A stretch of DNA of 64,000 bases. Origin: Magnetospirillum sp. (GTDB lineage: Bacteria; Pseudomonadota; Alphaproteobacteria; CACIAM-22H2). This document shows positions 12,301 through 14,308 of the stretch, piece after piece (position 1 is the stretch's first letter; the number at the start of each line of letters is the position of its first letter). The DNA lies in NCBI GenBank assembly GCA_027532905.1, contig JAPZUA010000001.1, positions 913,950 through 977,949 on the forward strand, given 5' to 3'. The notes beneath the pieces are model-generated. The model was not told the DNA's origin. It saw nothing but the letters and a program-made list of their open reading frames with translations, and ran no database searches. A program made the position numbers and the translations under genes.

Positions 12301-12885
12301 CTAGCGGCGCACGTTGCAGGCGCGGTCGATATCGGCCAAAGCGCGGGCAAAGCCCGTGAGATTGTAGGTGTCGGTCGTCTCGGTGCCGCGTGCGGACACG
12401 CCGCGTACGATTGCCGTTGCGCGCGGGGCGGCGGCGCGCATCGCGTCGATGGCCGTGCGGTTGGCGGCGTCTTCGCGCGTCCAGGCACGGTCGGAGCCTG
12501 GCTGGTCGAGATTGGAAAGCGGCACTTTGACGCGCCCGATTTCGATTTCCATGGCCCCGCCGTCGCGCAGCGGATATCCGGCAAACCACGTGATCTCGTT
12601 GGATTTGTTGACGCCCGGATAATGCGCCACGCTCAAGGTCGGATCGGCGCGGCGCGCCCCCGCAGGCTTGCTCTCGACCTTGACCGGGCGGCCGATCACG
12701 TAGCACACGCGCGTGGCCCCGCTGCCTGCTTCGGCCGCGAGCCAGCCGTCGTAATTGCCGAGCTGGCGCGGGCCCGCATTTGCGGGTGCGGCCGGGGCGG
12801 GGGCAGCCGGGCGCGGCTGCGTTTGGGCCCCCGCCTCGACGGCGAGGAACAAACCAAATACAGAGAGCCAGAGAGCGGTTTTCAT
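12301..12885 (-). CDS. IalB-like (invasion-associated locus B family) secreted protein
   Basis: A 194-residue protein with a signal peptide ([21 protein letters not shown], cleavage near AGA-Q) and a Pro/Ala linker. The domain has the IalB-family pattern: [49 protein letters not shown] ... [11 protein letters not shown]. The family is widespread in alphaproteobacteria; despite the name it need not be linked to virulence. The start at 12885 is set by the signal peptide. It is divergent from the ECF sigma gene. Confidence 0.75.
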
Positions 12886-12894
12886 GGGCGAATC

Positions 12895-12920
12895 GTGATC
12901 CGATGGGCCATAGCTTGCGT
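12895..12920 (+). promoter_or_regulatory. Candidate RpoE/ChrR-class ECF promoter
   Basis: TGATCC (12895-12900) is followed after 18 bases by TA (12919-12920). TGATCC-N18-TA resembles the -35/-10 arrangement reported for the RpoE/ChrR group in Rhodobacter. It lies 130 bases before the chosen sigma-factor start, so it would be an autoregulatory promoter. The match is short, and the -10 context beyond TA is weak. Confidence 0.4.
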
Positions 12921-13049
12921 ATCGCACTGGACATGATGCTCGTCAACCGCGCAGAAACCCTCGCCCCACGCCCCGGCCGCCCCAGCGCGGTCGCGACGGC
13001 GTTTGCGGGCGCGCTTGCGCCGTTCTTGAACCGCTCTATACAAGGCGCC

Positions 13050-13634
13050 ATGGCCAACGACAGCGACCCGCTTTTGCCGGCAACCCCGACGCTCGAAGCG
13101 CTGGTGCGCGATCTGGGGGCGGTGGCCAATCGCCAGGACCGGGCGGCTTTCGCCCGTCTGTTCGCGCATTTCGCCCCGCGCGTGAAGGGCTATCTGATGC
13201 GCCTGGGGGCCGAGCGCGCGCAGGCGGACGACCTGATGCAAGACGTGATGCTGACCGTCTGGCGCAAGGCGCCCGGCTACGATCCGCAGATGGCGAGCCC
13301 CGGCACCTGGATATTCGCGATCGCGCGCAATCGGCGCATCGACGCACTCCGCCGCGACAAGCGCGCCGATCTCGACCCCGACGATCCGGGCCTAATGCCC
13401 GATACCGCCGCCCTGCCCGACCGCGTGCTCGATGCCCGCATGTGGGAGACGCGGCTGGCGGGGGCGATCGCCGATCTGCCGCCCGAACAGGCGCAGATGC
13501 TGCGCCTTGCCTATTACGAAGACCGCTCGCACGGCGACATCGCTTCGAGCCTGCGGCTGCCGCTCGGCACGGTCAAGTCGCGCCTGCGGCTTGCCGTGGC
13601 GCGGCTTCGCACTATGTTTGAGAGCGACACATGA
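13050..13634 (+). CDS. ECF RNA polymerase sigma factor (RpoE/ChrR class)
   Basis: A 194-residue sigma factor with region 2 ([48 protein letters not shown], then [20 protein letters not shown]) and region 4 ([44 protein letters not shown]). It is immediately coupled (ATGA) to a ChrR-like anti-sigma gene, as in the group that responds to singlet oxygen. An in-frame ATG near 12933 would add 39 residues, but these do not look like sigma region 1 and would start almost at the predicted transcript start, so 13050 is preferred. Confidence 0.9.
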
Positions 13635-14308
13635 AAGCGCACAGCATGACAAACTTGGCCCATATTCCGGACGAATGGCTGCTCGACCACGCCGCCGGCG
13701 CCACGCCCGAGCCGGTGGCGGTGCTCGTCGAAGCGCATCTTGCACTGTCCGCACCTGCGCGCGCGACCTATGCGCGCCTCGCTTCCGTGGGCGGCGTTCT
13801 GCTCGAACAGCAGGCACCGGCCGAACTCGCCGCCGACGCGCTCACCTGCATGATGGCGCGCATCGATGCGAGCCCCGCAACCTTGCGCCACACCGCACCG
13901 GCCGCCGCTTCCGCCCTGCTGCCCGCCGCCGTCAGCGCCTATACGGGCCCGTCGATCGACGCCCTTGACTGGCGGCGCGTGGTGCGCGGCGTGGAACAGG
14001 CCACGCTGAAGCTCGGCACGACAAGCCCCTACGAATTGAGCCTGCTGCGCATTGCGGCCGGCAAGTCGATCCCGCAGCACACGCACGAGGGCGACGAACT
14101 GCTGCTCGTGCTCGCCGGTTCGTTCGAAGACGGGCGTGCCGGCTATGCGCGCGGCGACGTGTGTGCGGCCGACGCAAGCGTGGACCACGCCCCCGTGGCC
14201 GACCGCGCGACGGACTGCCTGTGCCTACATGTGGCCAATGCGCCCATCAAGCTCACGGGTCCGTTCGGGCGCCTTCTCAATCCGCTGCTGAAACTCGCGC
14301 GCCGCTAG
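13631..14308 (+). CDS. ChrR-like cupin anti-sigma factor lacking zinc cysteines
   Basis: A 225-residue protein with the ChrR layout: an N-terminal anti-sigma domain that grips the sigma factor and a C-terminal cupin. The first two zinc ligands of ChrR have counterparts (His11 in HIPDEWLL, His36 in HLALSAPA). The expected Cys-x-x-Cys after His36 is Ser40-x-x-Ala43, so the classical HxxxCxxC site is lost. The cupin metal set is intact: His150, His152, Glu156 and His186. A second in-frame ATG lies five codons in. Loss of the zinc site suggests altered sensing, or a fold held by other contacts. Confidence 0.85.
   Translation: MKAHSMTNLAHIPDEWLLDHAAGATPEPVAVLVEAHLALSAPARATYARLASVGGVLLEQQAPAELAADALTCMMARIDASPATLRHTAPAAASALLPAAVSAYTGPSIDALDWRRVVRGVEQATLKLGTTSPYELSLLRIAAGKSIPQHTHEGDELLLVLAGSFEDGRAGYARGDVCAADASVDHAPVADRATDCLCLHVANAPIKLTGPFGRLLNPLLKLARR

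Follow-up and report, generated by a model that had tools for sequence, protein, structure and literature searches.

In R. sphaeroides ChrR, the zinc of the anti-sigma domain is reported to be required for inhibition, while the cupin domain is dispensable for inhibition and required for the singlet-oxygen response, for which E147 and H177 are needed; the truncated protein ChrR85 inhibits but gives no response (PMC6852236). The same review describes t-BOOH as able to act in cells without an intact cupin, and gives the role of the N-terminal zinc in the singlet-oxygen response as unknown (PMC6852236). The reaction of singlet oxygen with a peptide model of the zinc site is reported to be fast (PMC6432622), so that zinc as the sensor is still a live idea. 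For V. cholerae ChrR, it is reported that the mutant C36S acts like wild type, that C33S leaves the reporter elevated, and that the first Cys has a part in control by nitric oxide and by blue light (PMC11976125). Among class I anti-sigma domains, zinc and non-zinc domains are described as mixed in the tree, with about 28% of the soluble ones having no Hx3Cx2C motif; AS19-1 and AS27 are named as mixed and AS33 as split (PMC7406223). For AS11, the group of ChrR, we found no statement of a mixed zinc state in the accessible part of that text, whose Fig. 2 (zinc motifs by subgroup) may show zinc-less members, and in the full-text literature we found no report of a zinc-less ChrR beyond those that this figure may hold. 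Outside the ChrR family, RseA of E. coli and RskA of M. tuberculosis are reported to bind sigma through a helical bundle that has no zinc (PMC7406223, PMC6852236), and the sigma binding of B. subtilis RsiW to be independent of zinc (PMC7406223).

The window, a stretch of 64,000 nucleotides from Magnetospirillum sp., contains at 13631-14308 (+) a gene that translates into a ChrR-family anti-sigma factor of 225 amino acids without the N-terminal zinc site. It follows an ECF sigma factor gene (RpoE/ECF11-like) at 13050..13634 (+), the product of which has 194 amino acids from this start, earlier starts being possible. The stop codon TGA of the sigma gene (13632-13634) overlaps the ATG of chrR (13631-13633) as ATGA, and Sigma70_r2 (67.4 bits) and r4_2 (45.7 bits) are both above their Pfam cut-offs; the sequence-only reading of this locus had called the sigma factor and the coupling intact. 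The anti-sigma factor scores 155.9 bits with TIGR02451 (cut-off 124.5) over positions 2-215 of the 216 of the model, and with E 1.3e-45 chance resemblance is no issue. The full-length score, the HHEH ligands of the cupin and the succession of an anti-sigma and a cupin fold all agree with this family, and Cupin_7 reaches 46.6 bits against a cut-off of 27. With the stress ChrR equivalog NF051881 (cut-off 300 bits) the protein scores 144.9 bits, and eight other ChrRs that we compared, two of them with the full H-H-C-C zinc set (HHCC), are also under this cut-off (117.9-201.3 bits). The adjoining ECF sigma gene and a TGATCC-N16-CGTA promoter are those of an ECF11 module, the ECF11 label of the sigma factor itself being one that no model scored. 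Where the motif of the ZAS subfamily is H-x24-H-x3-C-x2-C, the window ChrR reads H36-x3-S40-x2-A43. The protein is a ChrR by family and fold, and not a ZAS by motif. From the literature and the regulon, we would predict a singlet-oxygen-responsive ChrR that releases sigma via its cupin.

In a phmmer search against the PDB, the protein matched R. sphaeroides ChrR (2z2s) at E 2.9e-33, and also 2q1z. The alignment places H11 (13661..13663), H36 (13736..13738), S40 (13748..13750) and A43 (13757..13759), all on the + strand, on the zinc ligands H6, H31, C35 and C38 of R. sphaeroides ChrR (ligand list from PMC6852236). It also places H150, H152 and E156 (14078..14098, +) and H186 (14186..14188, +) on the cupin ligands H141, H143, E147 and H177, and the C-x-C of C196 and C198 (14216..14224, +) on C187/C189. 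Translation and alignment thus bear out that Ser40 and Ala43 occupy the CxxC positions and that all four cupin ligands are kept. The further statement that both His are present is only half right: H11 and H36 are there and H36 is a kept ligand, but the position of the first His is Pro in 6 of the 9 ChrRs of the genus (L033 and five more), so that H11 is probably secondary and no relict. Both refutations that had been foreseen, a sequencing error and another Cys pair as the source of ligands, fail. An error is very unlikely since the same Ser and Ala are found in L031, L032 and L033 and five further ChrRs of the genus have no CxxC; the single-contig genome G050 is also zinc-less. No substitute pair is seen, the sole other Cys of the N-terminal half, C73, being Arg, Arg and Lys in the three nearest relatives and hence not conserved.

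ChrR sequences were taken from the window's order (18 of 23 genomes with a match at E <= 1e-20), from an even set of the class (matches at E <= 1e-25 in 158 of 387 genomes, of which 150 are above the family cut-off), from a scan of named genomes (6 loci) and from plasmid records (8 of 83 matched, all eight ChrRs being HHCC). After removal of duplicates and fragments, the alignment held 193 distinct sequences, the R. sphaeroides reference included, with near-identical rows from sister genomes counted separately. Matches of 150 residues or less were excluded from it, and with them cupin-only and split ones (among them L002, L004 and a split copy in G072); the locus L003 gave no ChrR match and was not counted, partial matches in G019 and G057 are outside the counts, and three partial matches on viral contigs were left out of the analysis as wider relatives.

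The full zinc set is present in 136 of the 193 ChrRs and incomplete in 57. Two ligands are missing in 14 of these, three in 20 and four in 23, two of the last having a gap at the first His that was scored as missing. That no sequence is missing just one ligand is in keeping with a release of the zinc site as a whole. The second His (H31) has survived in 33 of the 57 zinc-less rows and is lost in 24; of the two Cys, 45 rows have kept neither, 11 only C35 and 1 only C38. The cupin ligand set HHEH is complete in 193 of 193. Counted by genome, 114 of the class-sample genomes have the zinc type only, 43 the zinc-less type only and 0 both among the analysed copies; this covers 157 of the 158 ChrR genomes, the remaining one (G408) having two partial matches. 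Without the eight genomes under the family cut-off, 37 of 150 are zinc-less. At the family level, the zinc type is the only one in 43 of 66 families and the zinc-less type the only one in 18, while 5 families have both. Two copies of ChrR are present in some genomes, the following five among them: G305 has them in tandem and both zinc-type (L182 and L195, C68:12932-14331), and in G136, G134, G220 and G292 both copies are zinc-less with differing ligand types.

It had been proposed to check whether the Cys-less type forms its own branch, and it does not. We built a quick maximum-likelihood tree after masking the ligand columns (61 of its 190 forks are open); the zinc state changes about 16 times on the best tree, at least 4 of these changes being forced by starred branches. 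Constraining the 57 zinc-less rows to one clade makes the tree 150 log-likelihood units worse, and this topology is rejected (p-AU 0.0035). Loss of the zinc site is recurrent within ChrR. Within the window's genus, 9 of 11 genomes have a ChrR, the other 2 being without a match, and all nine are zinc-less; they sit in a family clade of 14 rows that also contains two HHCC proteins (L013 and L023). The ligand states found in the genus (PHCA, PHCS, PHCG, PHSA and HHSA) suggest that H6 and C38 were lost first and C35 later; the His at position 11 of the window ChrR, which its two sisters share, would have been regained or shifted in a variable N-terminus. Such an order fits the wild-type behaviour of C36S and the elevated reporter of C33S in V. 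cholerae, with which the more frequent retention of C35 than of C38 across the natural decay (11 rows against 1) is also in line (PMC11976125).

The promoter before the sigma gene is an exact match to TGATCC-N16-CGTA at 12896..12921 (+), which suggests autoregulation; the promoter reported upstream of P. syringae PSPTO_1043 has the same form (PMC5507510). Motif and spacing are alike upstream of sigma in 9 of 9 ChrR-bearing members of the genus. Where a locus has a sigma gene and a sufficient length of sequence before it, TGATCC-N15-17-CGTA precedes 25 of the 44 zinc-less pairs and 84 of the 121 zinc-type pairs, and it is near zero in shuffles. With loci fetched twice included, 48 of the 62 zinc-less ORFs and 125 of the 139 zinc-type ORFs have a sigma gene as their immediate upstream neighbour. 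A scan for standard sigma-70 promoters and terminators gave no matches. The divergent gene at 12304-12927 (-) encodes a protein with no Pfam match; its longest reading starts inside the sigma promoter region, which a later Met start would clear.

The exact motif occurs at 7 sites in the window's genome compared to 2 for the reversed control. The genes led by it are rpoE-chrR, a sigma-32 factor (rpoH; NF005693 368 bits vs 315), a photolyase-type gene (both Pfam photolyase domains above cut-off, no NCBIfam model over cut-off), and the genes of a molybdopterin oxidoreductase-domain protein, an RND adaptor, a DUF4394 protein and a 261-residue protein. The last (L214:708-1490; G000:C2, ~305 kb) starts 10 bases after its sigma-E-type promoter and has no Pfam or NCBIfam match at the thresholds applied. 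After the photolyase-type gene come an amine oxidase, a DUF1365 protein, which we take to be of the RSP_1090 type, a cyclopropane-synthase-type (CMAS) protein, an MFS_2 transporter and DUF3833. This operon is similar to the sigma-E core regulon of R. sphaeroides and P. syringae as published (PMC6852236, PMC5507510), and rpoHII transcription in R. sphaeroides is reported to depend on sigma-E (PMC6852236).

Both domains of the window ChrR are under purifying selection. The dN/dS values of the anti-sigma domain are 0.066/0.293 against L032, 0.057/0.296 against L031, 0.168/1.059 against L033 and 0.364/0.905 against L021, that is, 0.16 to 0.4 over the four comparisons. Those of the cupin are 0.015/0.219 (about 0.07), 0.035/0.297 (about 0.12), 0.159/0.782 and 0.346/0.870 in the same order. 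The constraint on the anti-sigma domain is weaker than that on the cupin (about 0.2 compared to 0.07 and 0.12) only against the two closest sisters, not against L033 and L021. The impression that the pair looks functional gains support from the ATGA overlap, the promoter in 9 of 9 ChrR loci of the genus, this selection, and the sites before rpoH and the photolyase operon, all of which are consistent with a working pair.

The window's genome has two Photo_RC genes (C5:75215-75973 and C5:76148-76879), presumably pufL and pufM, the reaction-centre pair, and we read the genome as that of an anoxygenic phototroph. Singlet oxygen should for this reason matter for the organism. In the window's order, ChrR is zinc-less in 7 of 7 Photo_RC genomes compared to 5 of 11 others with ChrR (p 0.038, the genomes being related). 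The class sample does not bear out a link of zinc-less ChrR with phototrophy: of the genomes with ChrR, the zinc-less type is found in 6 of 20 that have Photo_RC compared to 37 of 137 others (p 0.79), and 6 further Photo_RC genomes have no ChrR match. With 7 of 7 in the order and 6 of 20 in the class, loss of the zinc site is no mark of lineages that left the light.

In order to see what may stand in for the zinc, we turn to the residue at the lost C35, which in 46 rows is Ser (12), Asp (11), Asn (11), Arg (5), Lys (3), Glu (2), Leu (1) or Val (1). Ser, Asp and Asn, the classical helix N-cap residues, thus make up 34 of 46 compared to an alignment background of 13.2% (binomial p 1e-20, relatedness ignored). 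An AlphaFold model of the window ChrR from a 7-sequence alignment has a mean pLDDT of 74.5, with the blocks covering residues 11-50 at 82-92. In it, helix II ends at 39 and helix III is 41-52, which would put S40, directly before helix III, at the N-cap. The model of an HHCC control (L039, same 7 sequences, pLDDT 77.6) has helix II ending at 32 and helix III at 36-47, directly after C35. Over 191 columns, the window model matches 2q1z with E 2.1e-15, TMt 0.77 and rmsd 7.5; the last value means that the domains match and their mutual placement does not. Because AlphaFold places no metals and may draw on family memory, the model is consistent with zinc-free folding rather than proof of it. With a predicted ChrR-like fold and no substitute Cys pair, folding of the anti-sigma domain without zinc, one of the two possibilities that the sequence-only reading had offered, appears the most likely. 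Raw Fisher scans for compensating columns pointed to ChrR positions 8, 29, 33, 57 and others, several sigma columns being among those listed. None of the columns listed, in ChrR or sigma, withstands phylogenetic correction, and none could be significant since there are just 4 independent starred pairs, fewer than the 6 needed.

We consider it fairly likely that the locus is a working ECF11 RpoE-ChrR-type pair that has lost the zinc site of its anti-sigma factor, in which the domain works zinc-free and the cupin is the likely sensor. The zinc ligands are gone and the cupin ligands kept, and the pair, the promoter and the regulon architecture are conserved under purifying selection. The three-helix bundle would hold without zinc, with Ser40 capping helix III and with side-chain packing as reported for RseA. 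The domain would still sequester sigma, since a sigma that drives its own gene would escape control if the brake failed. Release of sigma would occur through the metal-bearing cupin, followed by proteolysis of ChrR; in R. sphaeroides, the metal-bearing cupin is reported to be necessary for the singlet-oxygen response (PMC6852236). The zinc of the anti-sigma domain would be a replaceable structural element and not an obligatory sensor. The natural series of ligand states argues for this and for the metal site of the cupin as the part that cannot be lost, and, given the 193 of 193 complete cupin sets, signalling is likely to be entirely by the cupin. Several observations stand against a working zinc-free domain. 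Inhibition by R. sphaeroides ChrR is reported to need zinc (PMC6852236), and the C33S mutant of V. cholerae appears to lose inhibition (PMC11976125). Sigma adjacency and the exact promoter motif are rarer in zinc-less than in zinc-type loci, and against the two closest sisters the anti-sigma domain is less constrained than the cupin. As Ser in place of the first Cys is reported to break a zinc-type domain, some compensation would be needed.

The window ChrR shares with R. sphaeroides ChrR the whole-length homology, the domain folds, the cupin ligands, the C-x-C, the sigma partner upstream, a TGATCC/CGTA-type promoter, rpoH and photolyase-type regulon genes, and a phototrophic host. It differs by Ser and Ala at C35 and C38, whereas there the N-terminal zinc is reported as required for inhibition. 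The laboratory mutant C36S of V. cholerae is alike in one respect: its second Cys is removed with blue-light control kept (PMC11976125), and the window ChrR also has no second Cys. In that mutant only one ligand is removed and the first Cys is not replaceable by Ser, whereas in the window ChrR it is naturally a Ser. RsiW is like the prediction for the window ChrR in binding sigma independently of zinc, and unlike it has a zinc-binding motif and regulates SigW. The window ChrR would also be like RseA and RskA in binding sigma by a helical bundle that has no zinc. To our knowledge, RseA and RskA fall outside the ChrR family and carry no ChrR cupin; unlike in these, the zinc site of the window ChrR has been lost inside a cupin-bearing and otherwise mostly zinc-type family. 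Since zinc-free anti-sigma domains are already known, the apparent novelty lies in the repeated loss of the zinc site among cupin-bearing ChrRs, the cupin site of which stays invariant.

It is rather unlikely, but the best of the alternatives, that the zinc-free domain works but answers a changed input, in which signals of the thiol type (nitrosative or disulfide stress) are no longer read and the signal set is narrower or different; this overlaps with the reading that we favour. The importance of the first Cys for nitric-oxide and blue-light control in V. cholerae (PMC11976125) speaks for it, and since t-BOOH is reported to act without an intact cupin in R. sphaeroides (PMC6852236), the N-terminal loss could remove that input. 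Yet the sequence gives no sign of a new input domain, and promoter motif and regulon are like those of the standard singlet-oxygen response.

A re-wired metal site, in which the anti-sigma domain would hold the metal by other ligands, e.g. H36 with H11 and H20, or nearby acidic residues, has an even smaller chance of being right. H20 (R. sphaeroides position 15) is His throughout the four-species clade with the S..A site, and in counts uncorrected for relatedness position 15 is His in 10 of 57 zinc-less rows compared to 4 of 136 zinc-type rows and position 29 is Glu in 14 of 57 compared to 2 of 136. On the other hand, L033 has Pro for H11 and otherwise the same S..A site, 22 of the 57 zinc-less rows have no Cys at all in the domain, and the 24 rows mentioned above have lost H31 as well. 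A scan for His, Cys, Asp, Glu and Met found no new position gained across most losses, with the one exception of Glu at position 57 (32 of 57 compared to 29 of 136), a residue that zinc-type rows often have as well. A decaying pair, in which ChrR no longer inhibits and sigma is constitutive or silent, would follow from the need of zinc for inhibition in R. sphaeroides (PMC6852236), but is highly improbable given the open frames and promoter in 9 of 9 ChrR members of the genus, dN/dS well below 1, invariant cupin ligands, and the zinc-less type as the only one in 43 of 157 class-sample ChrR genomes, too many for decay.

Returning to the working pair with a zinc-free domain, natural and otherwise complete ChrRs without zinc separate the two roles of the metal, in inhibition and in the response. 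Should such proteins inhibit and respond, the N-terminal zinc would be neither indispensable nor the sensor, which would leave the cupin as the place to look. The label 'zinc-dependent' would in that case be wrong for about a quarter of the class-sample ChrR genomes (43 of 157, or 37 of 150 over the cut-off). Phototrophs meet singlet oxygen most, and the zinc site was discarded there too. A broader claim, which we advance tentatively and with less confidence than the reading for the window pair itself, is that the N-terminal zinc is exchangeable and not the singlet-oxygen sensor anywhere in ChrR, having been discarded several times, also in phototrophs, and that the metal site of the cupin is the universal sensor and cannot be dispensed with. 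As a separate observation, the locus L003 of the window's genome (L003:1258-2322; G000:C1, ~1018.1-1019.2 kb) encodes a 354-residue protein with no CxxC, in which two similar N-terminal anti-sigma-like stretches (D-E-S/T-L-M-x-Y-A-D-G) are followed by a hydrophobic segment; it may be a second zinc-free anti-sigma factor, with a duplicated domain.
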